In this document: positions 32,062 to 44,298 of the stretch, one piece after another
Position numbering within the stretch: the stretch's first letter is position 1
How the letters are laid out: every line of letters begins with the position of its first letter
Made by a program: the position numbers and the translations under genes
Origin: Ideonella aquatica
GTDB taxonomy: Bacteria; Pseudomonadota; Gammaproteobacteria; Burkholderiales; Burkholderiaceae_C
Direction: 5' to 3'
Length of the DNA stretch: 64,000 nucleotides
Assembly: GCF_018069755.1 (NCBI RefSeq)
Contig: NZ_JAGQDE010000009.1
Location: forward strand, 62,001 to 126,000
Notes under the pieces: generated by a model
Told to the model about the DNA's origin: nothing
What the model saw: only the letters and a program-made list of their open reading frames with translations
The model's database searches: none

Positions 32062-32087
32062 GGATGGCTCCTTTGGGGGAGAGGCGA

Positions 32088-34634
32088 ATGCGGGCCGCGA
32101 TCCTACACTGGGCCATGGCTGCTGCGACGCCCGTCGACCGCTGCGCAGTACCTCCCGCCCGGCGGCCGACGCCCTGGCGCCTGCTGGCCTGGCCCGTGGC
32201 CTGGATGCTGGGCCTGGGTGGGCACTTGCAGCTGGCCGAGCTGCTGGCGCCGGCCGCGGCCTGGGCGGTGACGGTGCTGGGCGCGCTGGGTCTGGTTCTG
32301 GTGGCGGCCTTCGGTCGTCAAGGCGGCGTCGCTGCCGCCGGGCTGCTGGCCATCAGCCTGCTGGCCCTCGCATTCGGCAGCACCGACCTGCGTGCCCGGG
32401 AGCGCCTGCTGGACCGGCTGGACAGCGGGCTGGAAGGTCGCGAGCTGCGCATCCAGGGGCGGGTGCAAGGCCTGGTGCAGGTGCAGGCCGATGGTCTGCA
32501 CTTCGTTTTCGAGCCCGACCCGACTGCGCCGGTGCTGGACGATGCCGATGGGCGGCTGCTGGCCCAGCTGCCCAGTCGGCTGTGGCTGGTCTGGCCCACC
32601 GCCGACGGCGTGCTGGCCGCACCCGCGGCACTGGCAGCCGGCGAGGCCTGGCGGCTGCCGGTGCGACTGCGCTCACCCCATGGCCAGCTCAACCCGCAGG
32701 GCTTTGATGCCGAGCTGTGGGCCTTCGAGCGCGGCCTGGGCGGCTTCGGCCAGGTGCGCACCGGCCGCGGCGCCGTGGCGCAGCGCCTGGACAGCCCGCG
32801 CTGGTGGGTGCCTAACGAGGCGCTGGGCCGGCTGCGCCAGGCGGCACGTGACCGCATCCTGCTGTCCGGCACCGACCCGGCCACCGTGGGTGTGCTGGCC
32901 GCGCTGGCCATCGGCGACCAGTCGGCGATCGGGCCTGTGCTGTGGGCCCAGTTCCGCGACACCGGCGTCGCCCACCTGATGTCGATCAGCGGCCTGCACA
33001 TCACCTTGTTCGCTGCGCTTGCGCAAGCCGTGCTGGCGGCGCTGTGGCGGCGCTGGCCGGCTGGCGTGGCGCGCTGGCCCACGCCGCGGGTTGCGCGCTG
33101 GGGTGGGCTGGCGCTGGCGGCCGCCTATGCAGTGCTGTCGGGCTGGGGGGTGCCCGCCCAGCGCACCGTGGGCATGCTGGCGCTGGGGGTGGCCATGGAC
33201 CATGCCGGCTGGCGCTGGCCAGCGCTGCTGCGCGGCGTCTGGGCGGCCGCTGGTGTGGCCACGCTGGACCCCTGGGCGCTGCTGCAGCCGGGCTTCTGGC
33301 TGTCGTTCGTGGCGGTGACCTGGCTGCTGGCGGCCGATCCGGACGCGCCTGCGGTGTCGGCGTCCTGGCGGCAGCGCGTCGGGCAGGCCTTGGCCCAGAC
33401 CTGGCGCAGCCAGTGGGTGGTCGGCCTGGGCCTGGCGCCGCTGGTGGTGTTGTGGTTCAACCAGTGGTCGCTGGCAGCCTGGCCGGCCAACCTGCTGGCC
33501 GTGCCCTGGGTGACCTGGGTCATCACGCCACTGGCCTTGCTGGGTCTGCTGTTGCCGCCGGTGCTGGGCCTGGCGGCGCTCCTGCTGGAGCCGTTGCTGG
33601 GGCTCACCGCTGTGCTGGCGCAGCCGTCCTGGGCCAGCCTGCCGGTGCCGGCCGGCCCGGCCTGGCTGGTGGTACCCGCGCTGCTGGGCGCCTGGCTGGC
33701 GGTGGCGCGCCTGCCCGCCGTGGTGCAGGCCCTGGCGGCCCTGCTGGTGCTGCCGGTGCTGTGGCCGGCGGTCTATCGACCCGCCCCGGGCGATTGGTGG
33801 GTGCAGGCGCTGGATGTGGGGCAGGGCAGTGTGGCACTGGTGCACACCCATCAGCATCTGCTCGTCTACGATGCCGGCCCCGCCCAGGGCCATGGCGAGG
33901 ATGCGGGCGAGCGGGTGATCTGGCCGGCACTGCGTGCGCTCGGGCAGCGGCAGATCGACGAACTCGTCCTGAGCCACGGCGACCAGGACCACATTGGCGG
34001 CGCCGCCAGCCTGCTGCGCCGCCTGCCCGTGGCGCGCTTGCGGCATTCACTGGATCCCGACCACCCGCTGCTGGCGGACCGGGCCGGTGCCCAGCCCTGT
34101 CAGGCCGGTCAGACCTGGACCTGGGACGGTGTGCGCTTCGAGGTGCTGTGGCCCCCCGAGCCGGGGGCCCGCCGCCACGGCGCCACCAATGCCGCCAGCT
34201 GCGTGCTGCACATCGAGGACGCAAGCGGCCGCGCGCTGCTGCTGACCGGCGACATTGGCGTCGCCGAGGAGGCCTTGATCGCCGCAGCGCTGGGCAAGCG
34301 CCCCGCTGTGGCGGTGCTGCTGGTGCCCCACCACGGCAGTCGCAGCTCCTCGTCGCAGGCGCTGCTGGCCGCCACACGGCCGGCGGTGGCCGTGATGCAG
34401 CAGGGCTACCGCAACCGCTATGGCCATCCGCACCCCGAGGTGCTGGCCCGCTATCTGGCAGCGGGCATCGATGTGGTGCGAACGGATGCCTGCGGCGCCT
34501 GGCGGTGGGATGATGCTGGTGCATCGTGCACCCGTGATGTGCATCGGCGCTACTGGCACCACCGCCTGGTGGATGCGCCGCACCCGTCGGCTGGTGCGCT
34601 TGTTGCTAATCCGGAGGCAGGAGAGACCGAATGA
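32088..34634 (+). CDS. comEC: DNA internalization competence protein ComEC/Rec2
   Basis: The protein is 848 residues from an ATG with GGGGGAGAGG upstream; an in-frame ATG at 32064 is possible. It has an N-terminal OB-like domain, then the Competence membrane domain (AHLMSISGLHITLFAALAQA and the helices after it). A C-terminal metallo-beta-lactamase-like domain has SHGDQDHIGG (H630, D632, D634, H635) and VPHHGSRSSSS. ComEC is the inner-membrane channel for single-stranded DNA during natural transformation. The stop overlaps the ATP-grasp gene as ATGA. Confidence 0.93.
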   Translation: MRAAILHWAMAAATPVDRCAVPPARRPTPWRLLAWPVAWMLGLGGHLQLAELLAPAAAWAVTVLGALGLVLVAAFGRQGGVAAAGLLAISLLALAFGSTDLRARERLLDRLDSGLEGRELRIQGRVQGLVQVQADGLHFVFEPDPTAPVLDDADGRLLAQLPSRLWLVWPTADGVLAAPAALAAGEAWRLPVRLRSPHGQLNPQGFDAELWAFERGLGGFGQVRTGRGAVAQRLDSPRWWVPNEALGRLRQAARDRILLSGTDPATVGVLAALAIGDQSAIGPVLWAQFRDTGVAHLMSISGLHITLFAALAQAVLAALWRRWPAGVARWPTPRVARWGGLALAAAYAVLSGWGVPAQRTVGMLALGVAMDHAGWRWPALLRGVWAAAGVATLDPWALLQPGFWLSFVAVTWLLAADPDAPAVSASWRQRVGQALAQTWRSQWVVGLGLAPLVVLWFNQWSLAAWPANLLAVPWVTWVITPLALLGLLLPPVLGLAALLLEPLLGLTAVLAQPSWASLPVPAGPAWLVVPALLGAWLAVARLPAVVQALAALLVLPVLWPAVYRPAPGDWWVQALDVGQGSVALVHTHQHLLVYDAGPAQGHGEDAGERVIWPALRALGQRQIDELVLSHGDQDHIGGAASLLRRLPVARLRHSLDPDHPLLADRAGAQPCQAGQTWTWDGVRFEVLWPPEPGARRHGATNAASCVLHIEDASGRALLLTGDIGVAEEALIAAALGKRPAVAVLLVPHHGSRSSSSQALLAATRPAVAVMQQGYRNRYGHPHPEVLARYLAAGIDVVRTDACGAWRWDDAGASCTRDVHRRYWHHRLVDAPHPSAGALVANPEAGETE

Positions 34635-36064
34635 GACCCAGCTTCGACGAGATGCAGGCCACCCCCACCACGGTGCGGCCGCATTACAAGACCTACGACC
34701 AATGGCTGGCCCGCCAGCCCCGCGACGACATGCAGGCGCGGCGCGAAGAGGCGGAGATGATCTTTCGCCGCGTCGGCATCACCTTTGCCGTCTACGGTGA
34801 CAAGGACTCGGGCGAGGGCACCGAGCGCCTGATCCCCTTTGACCTGATCCCGCGCGTGATCCCGTCCCATGAGTGGCGCGAGATGGAAAAAGGCCTGCGC
34901 CAGCGCGTCACCGCGCTGAACCGCTTCATCCACGACATCTACCACGGCCAGGAGATCCTCAAGGCCGGCATCGTCCCGCGCGAGCAGATCCAGAACAACG
35001 CCCAGTTCCGCCCCGAGATGATGGGCGTCGATGTGCCGCAGGATGTCTACTCGCACATCGCCGGCATCGACATCGTGCGCGCCGCCCAACCCGATGGCAG
35101 CGGTACCTACTACGTGCTGGAAGACAACCTGCGTGTGCCCAGCGGTGTCAGCTACATGCTGGAGAACCGCAAGATGATGATGCGGCTCTTCCCCGAGCTG
35201 TTCGCCCAGCACCGCGTGGCCCCGGTGGCCCACTACCCCGACCTGCTGCTCGAAACCCTGCGCAGCGTCGCGCCGCGCCAGGTGGCCGACCCCACCGTGG
35301 TGGTGCTCACCCCTGGCATGTACAACTCGGCCTACTTCGAGCACGCCTTCCTGGCCCAGCAGATGGGCGTCGAGCTGGTCGAGGGCCAGGACCTGTTCGT
35401 CAAGGACCGCACCGTTTTCATGCGCACCACCCAGGGCCCGAAGCGGGTGGACGTGATCTACCGCCGCCTGGACGATGACTTCCTGGACCCCCAGGTCTTT
35501 CGGTCTGACTCCACGCTGGGCTGCGCCGGCCTGGTCGACGCCTACAAGGCCGGCAACGTCACGCTGAGCAATGCCATCGGTACCGGCATTGCCGACGACA
35601 AGTCGATCTACCCCTACGTGCCCAAGATGGTCGAGTTCTACCTGGGTGAGAAGCCCATCTTGCACAACGTGCCCACCCACCTGTGCCGCGAGAAGGACGA
35701 CCTGGCTTACGTGCTGGCCCACCTGGACGAGCTGGTGGTCAAGGAGGTGCATGGCGCCGGCGGCTACGGCATGCTGGTCGGCCCGGCGGCCACGAAGGCC
35801 GAGATCGAGGACTTCCGCGCCCACCTGGTGGCCAACCCCAGCAACTACATTGCCCAGCCCACGCTGAGCCTGTCGACCTGTCCCACCTTCGTCGACAGCG
35901 GCATTGCGCCACGCCATATCGACCTGCGGCCCTTCGTGCTCTCGGGCACCGAGGTGCAGATGGTCCCCGGAGGCCTCACCCGCGTGGCCCTCAAGGAAGG
36001 CTCGCTGGTGGTCAACAGCAGCCAGGGCGGTGGCACCAAGGACACCTGGGTGCTTGAAGACTGA
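34631..36064 (+). CDS. Circularly permuted ATP-grasp protein (DUF404/DUF407 type), predicted amidoligase
   Basis: The protein is 477 residues and cytoplasmic. Diagnostic stretches are GIVPREQIQNN, YVLEDNLRVPSGVSYMLENR, VDVIYRRLDDDFLDP and VVKEVHGAGGYGMLVGP. These belong to the circularly permuted ATP-grasp family. ATP-grasp enzymes form amide or peptide bonds through acyl phosphates. The family is predicted to build a peptide-like product; no substrate is known. The start overlaps comEC, and the alpha-E gene follows 32 bp later. Its paralogue is the N-terminal part of the fused protein at 40740. Confidence 0.88.
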   Translation: MRPSFDEMQATPTTVRPHYKTYDQWLARQPRDDMQARREEAEMIFRRVGITFAVYGDKDSGEGTERLIPFDLIPRVIPSHEWREMEKGLRQRVTALNRFIHDIYHGQEILKAGIVPREQIQNNAQFRPEMMGVDVPQDVYSHIAGIDIVRAAQPDGSGTYYVLEDNLRVPSGVSYMLENRKMMMRLFPELFAQHRVAPVAHYPDLLLETLRSVAPRQVADPTVVVLTPGMYNSAYFEHAFLAQQMGVELVEGQDLFVKDRTVFMRTTQGPKRVDVIYRRLDDDFLDPQVFRSDSTLGCAGLVDAYKAGNVTLSNAIGTGIADDKSIYPYVPKMVEFYLGEKPILHNVPTHLCREKDDLAYVLAHLDELVVKEVHGAGGYGMLVGPAATKAEIEDFRAHLVANPSNYIAQPTLSLSTCPTFVDSGIAPRHIDLRPFVLSGTEVQMVPGGLTRVALKEGSLVVNSSQGGGTKDTWVLED

Positions 36065-36096
36065 CCCCCCGATCGGCCCCTTCAGGAAACAAGAAC

Positions 36097-37053
36097 ATGC
36101 TCTCACGTACCGCCGATCACCTGTTCTGGATGTCCCGCTACATGGAGCGGGCCGAGAACACGGCCCGAATGCTCGACGTCAATTACCAGACCTCGCTGAT
36201 GCCGCAGTCCACGGACGCGGCCGAGCAGGGTTGGCGCGGCCTGCTGTCGATCTCTGAACTCACCCAGGACTACCAGGCCCGCTATGGCGCGATCGACGCC
36301 GCACGGGTGCAGGACTTCATGGTCCGTGACGAGCGCAATGCCTCGTCCATCCTGTGCTGTCTGCGCGCCGCACGCGAAAACGCCCGCGCCATCCGCGGCA
36401 CCCTCACCACCGAGGTCTGGGAGACCACCAACCAGACCTGGCTGGAGTTCAACCGCCTGCTGAAGGACGGGCTGCTGGCCCGTGACCCGTCGGCGCTGTT
36501 CGAGTGGGTCAAGTTCCGCTCGCACCTCTCGCGTGGCGTGACCGTGGGCACGATGCTGCAGGACGAGGCCTTCAACTTCATCCGCATCGGCTCCTTCCTG
36601 GAGCGCGGCGACAACACCGCCCGGCTGCTGGACGTGAAGTTCCATGCGCTGCAGGGCGGTCTGCCGGCGGCCGATGCCGCGCCGCGCGGCGGCGAGCAGG
36701 ATTTCTACCACTGGTCGGCGATCCTGCGCTCGGTCTCCGCCTTCGAGATCTACCGCAAGGTCTACCGCAACGTGATCGAGCCGCACAAGGTGGCCGAACT
36801 GCTGATCCTGCGCGCTGACATGCCGCGCTCGCTGGCGCACTGCACCGGCCAGGTCCTGCGCAACCTCAAGCGCGTGGCCAACCAGCAATCGGCCGAGACG
36901 CTGCGCCTGGCCGGCCGCCTGGCCAGCGACCTGGAATACGCCCGCATCGAGGAGATCCTTGAGACCGGCCTGCATGCCTTCCTGAGCCAGTACCTCGACC
37001 GTGTGGGCGATCTGGGTGCCGGCATCAGCCGCGACTTCCTGGTGCCGTCCTGA
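36097..37053 (+). CDS. Alpha-E domain protein (DUF403)
   Basis: The protein is 318 residues, almost entirely alpha-helical. It begins MLSRTADHLFWMSRYMERAE, the alpha-E signature, followed by NTARMLDVN. Conserved later segments are FNFIRIGSFLERGDNTARLLDVK and HWSAILRSVSAFEIYRKVY. Alpha-E proteins are consistently encoded with circularly permuted ATP-grasps and are thought to assist them; no enzymatic activity is known. The same domain is fused to the second ATP-grasp downstream, where the LFWLGRYTERAENCVRLA signature recurs. Confidence 0.88.
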   Translation: MLSRTADHLFWMSRYMERAENTARMLDVNYQTSLMPQSTDAAEQGWRGLLSISELTQDYQARYGAIDAARVQDFMVRDERNASSILCCLRAARENARAIRGTLTTEVWETTNQTWLEFNRLLKDGLLARDPSALFEWVKFRSHLSRGVTVGTMLQDEAFNFIRIGSFLERGDNTARLLDVKFHALQGGLPAADAAPRGGEQDFYHWSAILRSVSAFEIYRKVYRNVIEPHKVAELLILRADMPRSLAHCTGQVLRNLKRVANQQSAETLRLAGRLASDLEYARIEEILETGLHAFLSQYLDRVGDLGAGISRDFLVPS

Positions 37054-37154
37054 GCGTCACGACCTGATCACCGTCGACGGCGATCCTCGGGCGCTCCACC
37101 GCCCGGGGCAGCGCCGCCGCCGGCCCGAGATTCGATTTCCACCAAGGAACGCCC

Positions 37155-40100
37155 GTGTCCATCCACGTCGCCCTCAAGCACGTCACCCATTACCGCTATG
37201 ACCGCCGTGTGGGCTTGTCGCCGCAGATCGTCCGCCTGCGGCCGGCACCGCACTGCCGCACGCCGATCCTGTCCTACTCGATGCAGGTCGAACCCAGCGG
37301 CCACTTCATCAACTGGCAGCAGGACGCCTTCGCCAACTACATGGCACGCCTGGTCTTCCCCGAGAAGACCACCGAGTTCAAGGTCACCATCGATCTGGTG
37401 GCCGAGATGTCGGTCTACAACCCCTTCGACTTTTTCCTGGAGCCCGAGGCCGAACACGTCCCCTTCGCCTACTCCGACAGCCTGCGTGCCGAGCTGGCGC
37501 CCTACCTGGTCACCGAACCCGCCACGCCCAAGTTGGCGGCGCTGCTGGCCAGCGTGCCCACCGAGAAGACCCGCACGATCGACTTTCTGGTGGGTCTGAA
37601 CCAGCGCCTGCAGCAGGACATCGCCTACACCATCCGCATGGAGCCCGGCGTGCAGACGCCCGAAGAAACGCTGACCAAGGGCAGCGGCTCCTGCCGCGAC
37701 ACCGGCTGGCTGCTGGTGCAGATGCTGCGCCACCTGGGGCTGGCGGCGCGCTTCGTCTCGGGCTACCTGATCCAGCTCGCCCCGGACGTGAAGGCGTTGG
37801 ACGGCCCCAGCGGCACCGAGGTCGACTTCACCGACCTGCACGCCTGGTGCGAGGTCTACCTGCCCGGCGCCGGCTGGATCGGCCTGGACCCCACCTCGGG
37901 CCTGCTGGCCGGCGAGGGCCACATCCCTCTGGCCTGCACGCCGCAGCCCAGCAGCGCGGCGCCCATCTCGGGCGCGGTGGACGAATCCGAGGTCAGCTTC
38001 GGTCATGAGATGGGCATCACCCGGATCTGGGAGTCGCCCCGCGTCACCAAGCCTTACACCGAAGACCAATGGGAGCGCGTGCTGCGCCTGGGCGAACAGG
38101 TTGACGCCGAGCTGCAGGCCGGCGACGTGCGCCTGACCATGGGCGGCGAGCCCACCTTCGTTTCGGTCGACGACCGCGACGGCGCCGAGTGGAACACCGA
38201 CGCCCTGGGCCCGACCAAGCGCCTCTACGCACAAGACCTGGTGCACCGCCTGCGCGCCGAGTACGGCCAGGGGGGCTTCCTGCACTACGGCCAGGGCAAG
38301 TGGTACCCCGGCGAGCAACTGCCCCGCTGGGCGCTGTCGATCTGCTGGCGCGCCGACGGCCAGCCGTGCTGGCACGACCCGTCGCTGTTCGCCGATGAGC
38401 GCGAGCCGCATGCCTACACCTCGGACGATGCGCAGCGCTTCCTGCGGGCGCTGACCCAGCGGCTGGGCCTGAGCACCGACTACATCCAGACCGGCTTCGA
38501 AGACACCTGGTACTACCTGTGGCGCGAGCGCCGTCTGCCGGTCAACGTCGATCCGTTCGAGTCCCGTCTGGACGACGAACTGGAGCGCCTGCGCCTGCGC
38601 CGCGTCTTCAACCAGGGACTGGACCACCCGGTCGGCTATGTGCTGCCGATCAAGGCCGAGGACGGCCCCGGCCTGAGCGGCACGCGCTGGGTCACCGGGC
38701 CCTGGTTCTTCCGCGACGAGCGCATGTACCTGTTCCCCGGCGACTCGCCGATGGGCTACCGCCTGCCGCTGGACTCGCTGCCCTGGGTGGGCGAGTCCGA
38801 CTACCCGTTCATGCACGAACACGACCCCTTCGCGCCGCGCGACGCGCTGCCGGCCGCCAGCCGGCTGAAGGCGCAGTTCGCCCATGAGCTGGGTGGCGAG
38901 CAGGGCTATGCCGCCCACCGTGTGGGCGGCGGCTTTGCCGAGGGCGGCACGGTGGCGCTGCAGTCGGCCGATCTGGATGGCGGCGGGGTCAGCGGCGGCG
39001 GCATGGCGGCCGACGTGGGCCAGGGTAGCAGCGAGGCGCGCCTCGCGCCTGCCGCCTCGTCCGTGCCGCTGGACCAGCGCCCCGAGCGCTTCCAGAGCGC
39101 CCACTGGATCACCCGCACCGCGCTGTGCGTGGAGGTGCGCGACCCGCGCCGCGCCAACGGCCCCAAGGCCGAGGCGGTCGGGCAGGCCACCGGCGTGATG
39201 TACGTCTTCATGCCACCGCTGCAGCGCCTAGAGGACTATCTGGCGCTGCTGGCGGCGATCGAGGCCACGGCCGCTGAGCAGGGCGTCAAGCTGGTCCTGG
39301 AGGGCTATCCGCCGCCGCGTGATCCGCGCCTGAAGCTGCTGCAGGTCACGCCCGACCCCGGTGTCATCGAGGTCAACATCCACCCCGCCCACCACTGGCG
39401 CGAGGTGGTGCAGCACACCGAGTTTCTCTACGACGCCGCCTGGCGCTCACGCCTGTCCACCGAGAAATTCATGCTCGATGGCCGCCACACCGGCACCGGC
39501 GGCGGCAACCACATCGTGCTGGGCGGCGCCACGCCGGCTGACTCGCCCTTCCTGCGCCGCCCGGACCTGCTGGCCTCGCTGCTGGCCTACTGGCATAACC
39601 ATCCGTCCCTGAGCTATCTGTTCAGCGGCCTGTTCATCGGCCCAACCAGCCAGGCGCCGCGCGTGGATGAAGCGCGCAACGACCAGTTGCGCGAGCTGGA
39701 GATCGCACTGGGCGAGATCGATCGCAACCAGACGCTTTACGGCCAGCACATGCCGCCCTGGCTGGTCGACCGCGCGCTGCGCAACGTGCTGGTCGACGTG
39801 ACCGGCAACACCCACCGCAGCGAGTTCTGCATCGACAAGCTCTACTCGCCCGACAGCAGCACCGGCCGCCTGGGCCTGCTGGAGCTGCGCGCCTTCGAGA
39901 TGCCGCCGCACGCCCGCATGAGCGTGGTGCAGCAGCTGCTGCTGCGCGCGCTGATCGCCCGCTTCTGGACCACGCCCTACCGTGCGCCGCTGGTGCGCTG
40001 GGGCACCGAACTGCATGATCGATTCCTGCTGCCAGCCTTTGCGCAGATGGACTTTGCTGATGTGCTTGAGGAGATGCAGCAGGCCGGTTACGCGATGGAG

Positions 40101-40679
40101 CCCGGCTGGTTTGCGCCGCACTTCGAGTTCCGGTTCCCGAAGATCGGCGAGTTCGCCGCCCGCGGCGTGCACGTCACGCTGCGCAGCGCGCTGGAGCCCT
40201 GGCATGTGATGGGCGAGGAGGGCGCGGCCGGAGGAACAGTGCGCTACGTCGACTCGTCGCTGGAGCGGTTGGAGCTGCGCGTCAGCGGGCTGATCGATCC
40301 GCGCCACCGCATCACCGTCAATGGCGTCGGCGTCGACCTGCAGCCCACCGGGCGGGCGGGCGAGTTCGTCGCCGGCGTGCGCTACCGCGCCTGGCAGCCG
40401 CCGTCGGCGCTGCACCCCACCATCGGCGTGCACGCGCCGCTCACGGTCGACCTGATCGACACCTGGATGCGCCGCTCGCTGGGCGGCTGCCAGTACCACG
40501 TGGCCCACCCGGGCGGGCGCAACTACGTCACCTTCCCGGTCAATGCCTACGAGGCCGAGAGCCGCCGCCTGGCGCGTTTCTTCGCGATGGGCCACACGCC
40601 GGGCACGGTGGAAGCCCCAATGCCGGTGCGCAGCCTGGAGTTCCCGTTCACCCTTGACCTGCGCCGCGCAGGGCGCTGA
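37155..40679 (+). CDS. Transglutaminase-like protease domain fused to DUF2126
   Basis: The protein is 1174 residues from a GTG with AAGGAA upstream. Residues 1-~280 are a bacterial transglutaminase N-terminal domain plus the papain-like core, with triad C180 (GSGSCRDTG), H229 (DLHAWCEVY) and D245 (GLDPTSG). The rest (~300-1174) is DUF2126, with RLTMGGEPTFVSVDDRDG and TGTGGGNHIVLGG-type motifs. Such proteins are predicted peptidases or amide-forming enzymes that act on the product of the adjacent ATP-grasp. No signal peptide is seen, so it is cytoplasmic. It is the largest gene in the window. Confidence 0.88.
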   Translation: MSIHVALKHVTHYRYDRRVGLSPQIVRLRPAPHCRTPILSYSMQVEPSGHFINWQQDAFANYMARLVFPEKTTEFKVTIDLVAEMSVYNPFDFFLEPEAEHVPFAYSDSLRAELAPYLVTEPATPKLAALLASVPTEKTRTIDFLVGLNQRLQQDIAYTIRMEPGVQTPEETLTKGSGSCRDTGWLLVQMLRHLGLAARFVSGYLIQLAPDVKALDGPSGTEVDFTDLHAWCEVYLPGAGWIGLDPTSGLLAGEGHIPLACTPQPSSAAPISGAVDESEVSFGHEMGITRIWESPRVTKPYTEDQWERVLRLGEQVDAELQAGDVRLTMGGEPTFVSVDDRDGAEWNTDALGPTKRLYAQDLVHRLRAEYGQGGFLHYGQGKWYPGEQLPRWALSICWRADGQPCWHDPSLFADEREPHAYTSDDAQRFLRALTQRLGLSTDYIQTGFEDTWYYLWRERRLPVNVDPFESRLDDELERLRLRRVFNQGLDHPVGYVLPIKAEDGPGLSGTRWVTGPWFFRDERMYLFPGDSPMGYRLPLDSLPWVGESDYPFMHEHDPFAPRDALPAASRLKAQFAHELGGEQGYAAHRVGGGFAEGGTVALQSADLDGGGVSGGGMAADVGQGSSEARLAPAASSVPLDQRPERFQSAHWITRTALCVEVRDPRRANGPKAEAVGQATGVMYVFMPPLQRLEDYLALLAAIEATAAEQGVKLVLEGYPPPRDPRLKLLQVTPDPGVIEVNIHPAHHWREVVQHTEFLYDAAWRSRLSTEKFMLDGRHTGTGGGNHIVLGGATPADSPFLRRPDLLASLLAYWHNHPSLSYLFSGLFIGPTSQAPRVDEARNDQLRELEIALGEIDRNQTLYGQHMPPWLVDRALRNVLVDVTGNTHRSEFCIDKLYSPDSSTGRLGLLELRAFEMPPHARMSVVQQLLLRALIARFWTTPYRAPLVRWGTELHDRFLLPAFAQMDFADVLEEMQQAGYAMEPGWFAPHFEFRFPKIGEFAARGVHVTLRSALEPWHVMGEEGAAGGTVRYVDSSLERLELRVSGLIDPRHRITVNGVGVDLQPTGRAGEFVAGVRYRAWQPPSALHPTIGVHAPLTVDLIDTWMRRSLGGCQYHVAHPGGRNYVTFPVNAYEAESRRLARFFAMGHTPGTVEAPMPVRSLEFPFTLDLRRAGR

Positions 40680-40739
40680 GCACGGGCAGCGTTCGTGGAG
40701 GCGGACCAGCCCGGCCCGCAGGCAAGGCATCATTGGGGC

Positions 40740-43346
40740 ATGCAGCCGCAGCAACCCAGCCTCCTGCCCGATGACGCCGCCGTCGATCCGGTGGCGCTGG
40801 CGTTGGCGGCCGCCGTGCGCGGGCGCGACGGCCACTACAGCGAACTGCTGGGCCGCCTGGGCGAAGCCGGCGCGCCGGTGGCGGGCATGGCGCCGCTGTG
40901 GCGCGACTTCTTCAGCGCCATCGGTGCCGAGGGCTGGGCCGACCTGCCCGCCCGCCAGGCACGCATCCAGCGTCGGGTGCTGGAGGATGGCGCCACCTAC
41001 AACGTCTATGCCGATGGCAGCCAGAGCCAGCGCGCCTGGCCGCTCGAGTCACTGCCCACACTGATCGGCCCGGAGGACTGGACCCAGATCGAGCGCGGCG
41101 TGGCCCAGCGCGCCCGCTTGCTGGACGCTGTGCTGCGCGACGCCTACGGCGAGCGCCGCCTGCTGGAGGAAGGCCTGCTGCCGGCCTCGCTGGTGCTGGG
41201 CCACCCGCAGTACCTGCGGCCCATGCACGGCTGCCAGCCGGCCGGCGGCGTGTTCTTGCATGTCTCGGCCTTCGACCTGGTGCGCGGGCCAGAGGGGCGG
41301 TGGTGGGTGGCGGCCCAGCGCACCCAGGCGCCGTCGGGCCTGGGTTATCTGTTGGAGAACCGGCTGATCGTGGCCCAGCAGTTCCCGATCGCCTTCCGCG
41401 AGCTGCGCGTGCAGCGCCTGGCGTCGAGCTTTCTGGGCATGCTGCAGGGCCTGATGCGGCTGTCGCCCGCTGGAGAGCGCTCGCGCGTGGTGCTGCTCAC
41501 CCCCGGGCCGGCCAATGAAACCTACTTCGAGCAGGTCTTCCTGGCGCGCTACCTGGGCATTGCCCTGGTCGAAGGCGCCGACCTGACGGTGCGTGCCAAC
41601 CGTGTCTACCTGAAGACGCTGCACGGCCTGGAACGCGTCCACGTGGTGCTGCGTCGGGTGGACGACGAGTACCTCGACCCGCTCGAGCTGCGGCCCGACT
41701 CGGCGCTGGGTGTGGCCGGCCTGCTGCAGGCGTTGCGCGCCGGTGAAGTGGTGGTCGCCAACGCGCCCGGCGCCGGCTGGCTGGAGAGCCCCGGCCTGGC
41801 CGCCTTCTGGCCGGCGGTGGCCGAGCGATTGCTGGGCGAGCCGCTGGCCATGCCGGCGGTGACCACCTGGTGGTGTGGCGAGGAGGCCGTGTGGCAGGCG
41901 CACCGTGCGCGCCTGGCCGATTTCATCGCCGTGCCCACCTTTGCCCCGGGTCCCGGCCGACCCGGCCTGGTGCCGCAGCGCGTGGCCGCCCTGGAGGCCC
42001 GCGCCCGGGCTGACCTGGTGCAGCGCATTGACGACGACCCCGCTGCCTGCACGCTGCAGGCACCGATGCGCGGCGCCGAAACCCCGGTCTGGCGCGAAGG
42101 CCGGCTGCTGGCGCGCAGCGCGGTGCTGCGCGTCTTCGCGCTGGCCGATGGCCGCGGCGGCTGGCGCGTGGTGCCCGGTGGCATGGCCCGCGTGGCAGCC
42201 GAGGGCGATGGTGGCGCCAACCCCTGGCTGTCGATGCAGCACGGCCACAGCAGCGCCGACACCTGGGTGCAGACCGGCGGCGAGGTCGACCCGACCAGCC
42301 TGCTGCCGCGCCCCTTGAGCGCCGCTGACCTGGCCAGTTGGCACCGCAGCGTCACCAGTCGCTCGGCCGAGAACCTGTTCTGGCTGGGCCGCTACACCGA
42401 GCGCGCCGAGAACTGCGTGCGCTTGGCCCGGCTGACACTGGAAGCCCTGACCGGCTCACTGATCACCGGCGCCTCGGCCGAGGTGCTGGAGGTGCTGGAC
42501 ACCCTGGCCCGCCACCACGGCCTGGTCGGCACCGGCGTGCCCACGCCGCTGCAATCGGTGCGGGTGTTCGAGCGGGCGCTGGTGCATGCGCTGGGTGATG
42601 CCCAAGGCGCCACCAGCGTGGCCTACAACCTGCAGGCCCTGATGCGCTGCGCCCAGGCCCTGCGCGAGCGCCTGTCGCCCGAGCACTGGAAGCTGATCCG
42701 CGAGGTCGGCGAGCACTTTGACCAGCACCTGCGTGCCGCGCTCGACACCGCCGCTGCCGAGCCGCTGGCCGATGTGATGGGCGTGCTGGCCCGTGCCGCC
42801 ACCCACCTGGCCGCCATCACCGGCGCCCAGACCGACCGCATGACCCGTGACGACGGCTGGCGCCTGCTCAGCGTGGGTCGCCAGATTGAGCGCCTGGAGT
42901 TCCATGCCCACGCGTTGGCGCTGGGCATCGAGCGGGGCCTGCACCGCCGCGACGAGGGCTTCGCGCTGCTGCTGGGCCTGTTCGACTCCACCATCACCTA
43001 CCGTGCCCAGTTCCAGGCGCGGCGCGAGCTGCCACCGCTGCTGCACCTGCTGGTGCACGACACCGACAACCCGCGCGCGCTGGCCTGGGTGGCACGCACC
43101 ATGCGCGATCGCTTCGTCAAGCTCTCGCGTCACGATGCCGCCTGGGCGCAGGAGGTGGCGGCCACGCTGCCGCGGCCCGAAGACTGGCCGCTGGAGCTGA
43201 TCAGCACTCCCGACGATGCTGGCGGCCATGCGCCGCTGATCGCGCTGCTGGCACAGTGTGGCCAGCAGGTGAGGGGCCTGTCGGATGCGCTGGGCCAGCG
43301 CCTGTTCTCGCATGTCGGTCCGGCAGACCGCATGGTCTGGCAGTGA
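40740..43346 (+). CDS. Circularly permuted ATP-grasp fused to alpha-E domain
   Basis: The protein is 868 residues from an ATG; a GTG at 40695 would add 15 residues. The N-terminal ~480 residues repeat the ATP-grasp pattern of the gene at 34631 (GYLLENRLIVAQQFP and VVLRRVDDEYLDPLEL). In the paralogue these read SYMLENRKMMMRLFP and VIYRRLDDDFLDPQVF. The glycine-rich VKEVHGAGGYG of the paralogue is replaced by NAPGAGWLESPGL, so the ATP site may differ. Residues ~540-868 are an alpha-E domain (ENLFWLGRYTERAENCVRLA). The fusion itself supports physical cooperation of the two domains. Confidence 0.85.
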   Translation: MQPQQPSLLPDDAAVDPVALALAAAVRGRDGHYSELLGRLGEAGAPVAGMAPLWRDFFSAIGAEGWADLPARQARIQRRVLEDGATYNVYADGSQSQRAWPLESLPTLIGPEDWTQIERGVAQRARLLDAVLRDAYGERRLLEEGLLPASLVLGHPQYLRPMHGCQPAGGVFLHVSAFDLVRGPEGRWWVAAQRTQAPSGLGYLLENRLIVAQQFPIAFRELRVQRLASSFLGMLQGLMRLSPAGERSRVVLLTPGPANETYFEQVFLARYLGIALVEGADLTVRANRVYLKTLHGLERVHVVLRRVDDEYLDPLELRPDSALGVAGLLQALRAGEVVVANAPGAGWLESPGLAAFWPAVAERLLGEPLAMPAVTTWWCGEEAVWQAHRARLADFIAVPTFAPGPGRPGLVPQRVAALEARARADLVQRIDDDPAACTLQAPMRGAETPVWREGRLLARSAVLRVFALADGRGGWRVVPGGMARVAAEGDGGANPWLSMQHGHSSADTWVQTGGEVDPTSLLPRPLSAADLASWHRSVTSRSAENLFWLGRYTERAENCVRLARLTLEALTGSLITGASAEVLEVLDTLARHHGLVGTGVPTPLQSVRVFERALVHALGDAQGATSVAYNLQALMRCAQALRERLSPEHWKLIREVGEHFDQHLRAALDTAAAEPLADVMGVLARAATHLAAITGAQTDRMTRDDGWRLLSVGRQIERLEFHAHALALGIERGLHRRDEGFALLLGLFDSTITYRAQFQARRELPPLLHLLVHDTDNPRALAWVARTMRDRFVKLSRHDAAWAQEVAATLPRPEDWPLELISTPDDAGGHAPLIALLAQCGQQVRGLSDALGQRLFSHVGPADRMVWQ

Positions 43347-43356
43347 AGGGCGGCCG

Positions 43357-44298
43357 ATGACCGCTGCGCTGCGCTGGCTCCGCATCTGCCACGACACCCA
43401 CTACGACTACGAGCTGCCGGTGGAGCTGGCCCACCATGTGGCCTGCCTGGTGCCCCGCAGCAGCGAAACCCAGCTGGTACGCGCCTGGGACCTGAGCATC
43501 GACCCCACGCCCGATGAATGGCTGGCGCTGGCCGGGCCGGCGGCGCAGGCCCTGCCGCCCAGCCAGATCAGCGAAGACCCCTGGGGCAATGGCCGCATCA
43601 CCTTCAGCCATTCACGGGTCCACGAGAAACTGCGCGTGCGCAGCCGCTTCGAAGCCGGGCTCAGCGCCCCGGTGCCCATCGATCCGCTGGCCAGTCCGCC
43701 CTGGGAGGCGGTGGCCGAGTCCCTGCGCTACCACGCGGGCGCCACGCACCGCGAAGCCGTGGAATTCACGCTGGGCACCGAACTGGCGCCGCGCGATCCG
43801 GCCTTGGCCGCCTACGCCCGCACCTGCTTCACGCCCGGCCGTCCGATGGCTGCGGCGGCGGTCGATCTGATGGCACGTGTGCACGACGACTTCCAATACG
43901 AACACGGCGCCACCGATGCCGGCACCACCGCCGTACAGGCCCTGGCGCTGCGCCAGGGCGTGTGCCAGGACTTCGCGCACGTGATGATCGGTGCCTGCCG
44001 CTCGCTCGGCCTGGCGGCACGCTATGTCAGCGGCTATCTGCTGACCCAGCCCCCGCCCGGCCAGCCGCGTCTGGTGGGGGCGGATGCCTCGCACGCCTGG
44101 GCGGCGCTGTGGTGCCCCGAGCAGGGCTGGCTGGCGCTAGACCCCACCAACCGGGTGCCGGCCGGGCTGGACCACGTGACCCTGGCCTGGGGTCGCGACT
44201 ACGCCGACGTGGCGCCGCTGCGCGGCGTGATCCGCGGCGGCGGCCGGGTGCAGCCGCGGGTGGCGGTGACGGTGCAGCCGCTGGACGAGTCGCCCTGA
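43357..44298 (+). CDS. Transglutaminase family protein (second copy of the cluster)
   Basis: The protein is 313 residues. It has an N-terminal beta-rich domain (RICHDTHYDYELPVELAHH) and a transglutaminase-like core, with C203 (QGVCQDFAHVMIG), H246 (ADASHAWAALW) and D262 (LALDPTNR). It shows the same fold as the first ~280 residues of the 37155 gene, but without DUF2126. It closes the amidoligase cluster. GAAGGG lies upstream of the ATG, 10 bp after the fused gene. It is convergent with the ETF oxidoreductase gene, with a 19-bp gap and no clear terminator. Confidence 0.9.
   Translation: MTAALRWLRICHDTHYDYELPVELAHHVACLVPRSSETQLVRAWDLSIDPTPDEWLALAGPAAQALPPSQISEDPWGNGRITFSHSRVHEKLRVRSRFEAGLSAPVPIDPLASPPWEAVAESLRYHAGATHREAVEFTLGTELAPRDPALAAYARTCFTPGRPMAAAAVDLMARVHDDFQYEHGATDAGTTAVQALALRQGVCQDFAHVMIGACRSLGLAARYVSGYLLTQPPPGQPRLVGADASHAWAALWCPEQGWLALDPTNRVPAGLDHVTLAWGRDYADVAPLRGVIRGGGRVQPRVAVTVQPLDESP

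Follow-up and report, generated by a model that had tools for sequence, protein, structure and literature searches.

A predicted nitrogen-regulated operon of Ideonella aquatica with one putative ATP-grasp ligase, one probable pseudo-ligase and two transglutaminase-like hydrolases

The families of circularly permuted (CP) ATP-grasp, Alpha-E and transglutaminase proteins and the clustering of their genes were already predicted in 2009 by Iyer, Abhiman, Burroughs and Aravind, and nitrogen control has already been reported for two relatives of such clusters. In Burkholderia cenocepacia H111, the genes I35_5080-83, described as DUF404/DUF407, DUF403, transglutaminase and large transglutaminase, were among the NtrC- and sigma54-dependent genes (PMC5491218). 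In the Anbu operon of Pseudomonas putida, PP_2686-2688 were upregulated 11- to 15-fold under nitrogen limitation in the wild type (PMC7801951), PP2685-2687 were also reported as upregulated under nitrogen limitation (PMC3325844), and the expression of PP_2685 and PP_2688 was higher on nitrate than on ammonium (PMC8050072). In marine metagenomes, these domains were co-abundant with urea-metabolism domains (PMC3597751). Here, a stretch of 64,000 nucleotides from the 5.17-Mb genome of Ideonella aquatica (contig NZ_JAGQDE010000009.1, positions 62,001 to 126,000 of the forward strand; hereafter the window) was analysed for an operon of five adjacent genes on the + strand, termed G1, aE, TglD, fus and Tgl2, which we read, with real reservations, as a cytoplasmic amide conjugation/deconjugation system induced by nitrogen limitation.

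Gene families were assigned by Pfam. The five genes carried the domains that a sequence-only reading of this stretch had named, in the order CP-ATP-grasp, Alpha-E, transglutaminase-DUF2126, CP-ATP-grasp-Alpha-E and transglutaminase, and the three components of the 2009 clusters are encoded together. Since all scores were far above the curated Pfam cut-offs (Table 1), chance can be excluded for the five domain assignments. Both Alpha-E modules and both transglutaminase modules of that reading were recovered; TglD combined Bact_transglu_N, Transglut_core and DUF2126 domains, the last with 1339 bits. No NCBIfam family was found at an E-value of 0.001 for any of the five proteins. Four of the gene starts proposed earlier were retained, of which the exact start of fus (GTG 40695) is uncertain because the first 27 residues had a predicted local distance difference test (pLDDT) score below 50. 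The start proposed for the last gene, 43285, was over-long; ATG 43360 more likely fits, since in the longer frame both the N-terminal Pfam domain and the alignment of homologues start at residue 32. No signal peptide or membrane segment was seen by eye in the five proteins. An intracellular location fits, in keeping with the sequence-only reading, which saw no secreted member. The closest named locus returned was that of Ideonella alba, with 93% identity over the DUF2126 protein.

The strongest functional clue, absent from the sequence-only reading, is a pair of regulatory sites before G1. A perfect NtrC-type palindrome is followed by a sigma54 -24/-12 sequence, which contains both the GG and the GC and leaves 23 bases to the first start codon; as sequence matches, the two sites correspond to the promoter arrangement of an NtrC/sigma54 regulon member. 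They were scored against the general sigma54 and NtrC consensus sequences. With 0.27 palindromes expected in the window, the presence of one there is by itself unsurprising, and its weight comes from the genome-wide count and from the relatives. The whole genome contained seven perfect TGCAC-N7-GTGCA palindromes. When a sigma54 site of at least 10/12 was sought within 200 bp downstream of each, in either direction, it was found at two of the seven only, namely before glnA (identified by TIGR00653) and before this operon. Taking the 1.8% per point found in the window as background, the probability of at least two of seven is about 0.007. The predicted promoter lies within comEC (window 32064-34634), the end of which overlaps the first start codon of the operon. 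In 32 of 80 named loci a comEC gene stood close to one of the modules, a neighbourhood that looks like plain synteny.

Table 1 Features of the operon and its upstream region in the window
Feature	Position	Strand	Basis
NtrC-type palindrome TGCAC-N7-GTGCA, 10/10, inside comEC 3' end	34527..34543	+	Consensus match; 1 of 7 in genome
Sigma54 -24/-12 sequence TGGTGCG-CTTG-TTGCT, 10/12	34592..34607	+	Consensus match
G1, stand-alone circularly permuted ATP-grasp, predicted active amide ligase	34631..36064	+	PF14403/PF04174; CP_ATPgrasp_2 558 bits
aE, Alpha-E helical protein, two ER motifs	36097..37053	+	PF04168, 328 bits; 37-sequence alignment
TglD, transglutaminase-like cysteine hydrolase (C180-H229-D245) fused to DUF2126	37155..40679	+	PF08379, PF01841, PF09899
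fus, probable pseudo-ATP-grasp + diverged Alpha-E	40695..43346	+	CP_ATPgrasp_2 440 bits, Alpha-E 186 bits
Tgl2, stand-alone transglutaminase-like cysteine hydrolase, triad C202-H245-D261	43360..44298	+	Transglut_core + Bact_transglu_N

The distribution of such sites was then compared in two sets of loci, within 300 bp upstream of each gene. Set 1 comprised 109 loci of relatives and the window, leaving out three loci duplicating the window (L001, L002, L014) and genes without 300 bp of upstream sequence or a nearly complete N terminus; set 2 comprised 40 regions in genomes from 31 families of the order. The two sets have at least 10 genomes in common for TglD, the counts are not independent events because the loci are related, and calling a gene operon-first depends on detection of the preceding gene. 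Sigma54 sites of at least 10/12 preceded operon-first G1 in 35/42 cases in set 1 and 15/27 in set 2, and operon-first TglD in 59/84 and 13/34. They also occurred before G1 closely behind another operon gene (4/5) and before operon-first fus (1/3) in set 1. The inner genes of set 1 had four sites in 174 (TglD 0/23, aE 0/45, fus 0/33, Tgl2 4/73), and set 2 gave 0/29 for aE, 0/9 for inner TglD and 1/25 for inner Tgl2. The background in random windows was 2.7% of 6780 (315 bp, set 1) and 2.1% of 4000 (set 2). NtrC palindromes of at least 9/10 stood before operon-first G1 in 11/42 cases in set 1 (control 1.3%) and in 6/27 in set 2 (control 1.7%). From this distribution over the modules, the split-off parts of the operon tend to have a sigma54 promoter of their own. 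The operon genes are also present in Burkholderia arboris, Burkholderia latens and Burkholderia territorii (L057, L058 and L061), with sigma54 sites of 10-11/12 before G1. The published expression of relatives agrees with a nitrogen-linked switch, and the regulation of this operon by nitrogen limitation, predicted from its sites and from that expression, is well supported. A conserved NtrC/sigma54 promoter in the style of glnA indicates when to look for the function of the operon, namely under nitrogen limitation.

The two ATP-grasp proteins were compared by alignments which comprised, besides the window, part of the available sequences, namely 42 of 69 fusions, 45 of 76 TglD, 23 of 44 G1 and 36 of 46 Alpha-E. 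G1 matched the solved, uncharacterised protein 3n6x of the Protein Data Bank (PDB) over nearly its whole length (phmmer, E 2.5e-214). E164, D165, N166, K371, the glycine-rich loop, R428, D431 and N462 were invariant in all 24 sequences, the residue set expected of a live ATP-grasp enzyme, and G1 is predicted to be an active ligase. The roles of K371, the glycine-rich loop and D431 are presumed from the ATP-grasp fold in general. In fus, which lacks the full set, the equivalents of E164, N166 and D431 were changed in 43/43 Burkholderiales sequences and in 51/51 of a second set. This set consisted of the window, 21 set 2 loci and, from a phylum sample, the 29 loci with the best scores, all of these 29 within the same class; three genomes appeared twice among the 51. 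The glycine-rich loop was largely lost, and the K371 equivalent was retained in 22/43 and 36/51 sequences, with V at this position in the window. In 51/51, fus kept further invariants of G1, including R92, Y175, R180, E237, D254, R279, D281, D286, Q409, R433, R451 and D471. The activity of Cp1B was abolished or weakened when R139, D141, E163 and N165 were changed to alanine (PMC12568646), and the catalytic role of E164 and N166 in G1 is presumed from this enzyme. The ATP-grasp protein of the Yersinia bercovieri Anbu operon released phosphate from ATP (PMC6376114). The sequence-only reading had counted two ATP-grasp modules and had named the loss of catalytic residues as a sign against its proposal: both domains are present, but catalysis was overstated for the fused one, whereas the residues of G1 and both transglutaminase triads are intact. 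The fused ATP-grasp is thus probably a pseudo-enzyme, and recognising it as such spares futile assays.

Much of the invariant family surface is kept in fus while the presumed Mg ligands are lost, which argues for a probable role in handling the substrate. Its fused Alpha-E domain has an intact first ER motif (R556, W563, R566, Y567, E569 and R570 invariant in 43), and N173, R176 and K181 of the second motif were lost in 39 domains, chosen among the 43 by the motif SRxAEN. The pattern suggests a two-subunit complex of live G1 with a pseudo-ligase. The fusion is dispensable in many lineages, as 49 of the 107 genomes with DUF2126 described below had a single Alpha-E match and 19 of the 40 set 2 regions had no fusion.

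The AlphaFold model of fus (pLDDT 84.8) was searched with Foldseek, and all the matches listed were ATP-grasp enzymes: 3n6x, eukaryotic glutathione synthetases, Cp1B, YgiC/YjfC, trypanothione synthetase and GspS. The matches to Escherichia coli YgiC, YjfC and GspS and to trypanothione synthetase (E 8e-6 to 9e-4) bear on an amine-scavenging function, in which G1 would attach amines, among them polyamines, to glutamate or a peptide and the transglutaminases would hydrolyse the conjugate, as in GspS. YgiC and YjfC have been termed peptidylpolyamine synthetases (PMC12568646), the operon pairs an ATP-grasp enzyme with Cys hydrolases, and putrescine transport genes appear in the B. cenocepacia NtrC table, some down and one up (PMC5491218). 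However, these matches reach no further than the ATP-grasp fold, the closest of them, 3n6x, is itself uncharacterised, and no amine-uptake gene was recognised among the recurrent neighbours of the 80 named and 40 set 2 loci; ABC-type ATPases stood near the modules in 7/80 and 5/40. Amine scavenging is considered unlikely.

The transglutaminase triads are intact: the one in TglD was invariant in 46/46 sequences, and at least 97% of 70 sequences had the one in Tgl2. B. arboris has a further transglutaminase-like gene (L057:10007-10984) between Alpha-E and TglD; its product may be inactive or altered, since Ser replaces the expected catalytic Cys (EGTSRD, by eye). DUF2126 is a putative amidoligase by its Pfam label, and its ligase nature was not confirmed; the 2009 prediction reportedly covers this domain as well. 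Outside the transglutaminase part, no solved relative of DUF2126 was found with a credible E-value, and a fold search at E 0.001 with its low-confidence model returned transglutaminase-like proteins only. Profile comparison of DUF2126 with GCS2 and Amidoligase_2 (9/19 and 10/11 frames passing the length filter, respectively) gave no match, in a test whose positive control, Amidoligase_2 against GCS2, also failed. For Alpha-E, no recognisable solved relative and no credible match in the fus fold search were found, and a search of a viral library gave no match at E 0.001.

To describe the surroundings, 15 frame clusters recurring in at least six of the 80 named loci were collected, and one member each of 14 was checked against Pfam; the fifteenth is a topoisomerase-like gene by eye. 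Besides a PF15887 zinc peptidase, the recurrent neighbours are ordinary or unnamed families, including SLT transglycosylase, phasin, ABC ATPase, DUF3443, DUF2844, DUF4410, DUF1993, MFS, HlyD and MarR. Two recurrent clusters, including the largest (23 loci), had no Pfam match and may be antisense frames. A TgpA-type membrane transglutaminase (L063:580-3495) belongs to a cluster found in the fetched flank of six of the 80 loci. In set 2, the Anbu cluster alone was checked by family. Downstream of the operon in the window, an ETF-QO gene lies on the opposite strand.

These neighbours were also considered for the synthesis of a small peptide-like metabolite, in which G1 and DUF2126 would join amino acids and the transglutaminases would trim or cyclise the product. 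Such a function has on its side the family predictions attributed to Iyer 2009 (PMC5666114, PMC6376114), the match in fold between the ATP-grasp part of fus and both glutathione synthetases and Cp1B from E-64 synthesis, and an HlyD/MFS pair, possibly an exporter, in 6 of the 80 named loci. Nevertheless, no exporter was present in the operon and none recurred widely, in line with the earlier statement that none is obvious. A precursor-peptide gene was not seen among the neighbouring frames, in a search that took in frames above 80-90 codons; the conserved small peptide gene that the sequence-only reading had proposed to look for was not recovered within that range. Within the operon, the intergenic gaps of 32, 101, 15 and 13 bp, in order, leave no room for a precursor gene of more than ~33 codons, and the frames that separate TglD from fus in 10 loci looked unrelated to each other by eye. 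The second ATP-grasp is degenerate, and activation by nitrogen limitation would be odd for the production of a nitrogen-rich peptide. With the nitrogen switch, a purely biosynthetic, nitrogen-consuming role is less likely, though possible, and metabolite synthesis is regarded as a possibility on the doubtful side.

Two peptidases recur near the modules. In 19 of the 80 named loci, the gene cluster whose tested member is the PF15887 zinc peptidase lay close to TglD, 16 times within 400 bp on the other strand and three times ~3.6 kb downstream. Of the 19 loci, 16 come from the Burkholderia group and three from Achromobacter, so that few events may account for the adjacency. In one example, at L105:8580-9836 on the - strand, the PF15887 zinc peptidase also carries a zinc ribbon. 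Among 300 sampled genomes of the order, Alpha-E (170) and DUF2126 (107) were frequent, PF15887 was present in 22 (21 over the cut-off), and Alpha-E accompanied 106/107 DUF2126 and 22/22 PF15887 genomes, in counts uncorrected for kinship and genome size. Anbu was found in 22 of the 40 set 2 regions and in one of the 80 named loci. It was present in 17/19 set 2 regions without the fusion and in 5/21 with it; the fusion and a neighbouring Anbu nearly alternate. A peptidase is, by these counts, a frequent but not an obligatory companion.

The window itself contains no Anbu gene. One was found in the same genome with an Anbu protein query (contig 7, G000:C7:31593-32363), whereas a PF00227 search of the genome returned HslV only; Anbu is easily missed because the Pfam Proteasome model scores it at 18.8 bits, under the cut-off. 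This gene (L203:5594-6415 on contig 7) stands directly behind mutS, away from the operon. A sigma54 switch common to dispersed Anbu genes was considered and rejected, as sites of at least 10/12 preceded 2/20 unlinked Anbu genes against 2.9% of 3000 controls.

The peptidases raise the further possibility of protein tagging and turnover under nitrogen starvation, in which the ligase would add a small tag to proteins, the transglutaminases would edit the tags, and Anbu or the zinc peptidase would degrade the targets, in loose analogy to pupylation. The NtrC/sigma54 sites, the adjacency of Anbu or PF15887 in other genomes and the Pfam label of DUF2126 as a putative amidoligase, although the label was not confirmed, are consistent with such a function. 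On the other hand, no tag gene was found in neighbouring frames above 80-90 codons, Anbu is unlinked and without a promoter of this type in this genome, YbAnbu had no amidase activity on the substrates tried (PMC6376114), and the kinship of DUF2126 with glutamine-synthetase-like ligases could not be shown. We hold protein tagging to be improbable. Equally improbable is a protein-tagging and recycling system induced by nitrogen starvation, in which a live ligase is joined by an inactive sister subunit as reader of the tag or substrate, two cysteine proteases act as editors and lineage-specific peptidases (Anbu, the zinc peptidase or none) complete the work. If true, unrelated enzymes would here form the bacterial equivalent of ubiquitin or Pup, and any protein target of the operon would point to a new kind of bacterial protein turnover.

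The reading that we prefer remains amide conjugation and deconjugation in the cytoplasm under nitrogen limitation, and the system is best read as one live ligase, one pseudo-ligase and two cysteine hydrolases. As predicted, phosphorylated NtrC would bind 34527-34543 and sigma54 RNA polymerase would start transcription just upstream of 34631. G1, judged from its family and its intact residues, would convert a carboxylate to an acyl phosphate and then join it to an amine. The fusion protein, with its Alpha-E domain, probably holds or senses the substrate as a partner of G1-aE, substrate recognition being shared by fus and aE, while TglD and Tgl2 would cleave amide bonds through their Cys-His-Asp triads. 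DUF2126 may be a second ligase, as its database label says. The most likely purpose is that an amide or peptide substrate would be conjugated or marked under nitrogen stress and trimmed, which would make its nitrogen available for recycling; a protein, a polyamine and another small molecule are all candidates for this substrate. Taken as a whole, the earlier interpretation is partly supported.

Several observations weigh against a nitrogen-induced conjugation system of this kind. In set 1, 31/42 G1 promoters had no palindrome of at least 9/10, and palindromes of this quality were scarcer before TglD (6/84 in set 1, 3/34 in set 2). Sigma54 sites of at least 10/12 were missing before 7/42 operon-first G1 genes in set 1 and 12/27 in set 2, and before 25/84 and 21/34 operon-first TglD genes. 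For TglD, the shortfall is due in part to genes of this class that come behind an Anbu or transglutaminase gene outside the query set. PF15887 is absent from the genome of the window, and the best sigma54 score of its unlinked Anbu is 8/12. The 2/20 count for unlinked Anbu genes means that the link between Anbu and the modules is not a common switch. In P. putida, PP_2685 (Anbu) was unchanged (1.12-fold) in the study that reported the induction of PP_2686-2688 (PMC7801951). The model of DUF2126 was poor (pLDDT 63.7), and no ligase fold was matched.

A literature search, which covered mostly titles and few subscription papers, recognised no report of a product of these clusters or of a degenerate second ATP-grasp. 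As far as the searches show, the conserved promoter pattern of the split modules and the joint appearance of glnA and this operon when palindromes were sought across the genome are new, as are the degenerate second ATP-grasp, the near-alternation of fusion and Anbu, and the zinc peptidase link. The clusters of Iyer, Abhiman, Burroughs and Aravind likewise hold CP-ATP-grasp, Alpha-E and transglutaminase together, with the same predicted chemistry; the switch, its spread across the separated modules and the degenerate state of the ATP-grasp in the fusion come from the present analysis. I35_5080-83 of B. cenocepacia carry the same domain names, with orthology judged by names and order rather than by sequence comparison, while B. 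arboris differs by its additional transglutaminase-like gene. The Anbu operons of P. putida (PP_2685-2688) and Y. bercovieri likewise encode ATP-grasp, Alpha-E and transglutaminase proteins, with nitrogen-dependent expression in P. putida; compared with them, the operon in the window lacks Anbu and additionally has DUF2126, the fusion with its probable pseudo-ATP-grasp, and Tgl2. GspS also pairs an ATP-grasp fold with a cysteine hydrolase activity, and glutathionylspermidine synthetase/amidase and YgiC/YjfC thus share this pairing with the operon. Unlike in GspS, the two activities of the operon are in separate genes, Alpha-E and DUF2126 are present, and the hydrolase has a transglutaminase fold in place of that of the GspS amidase.

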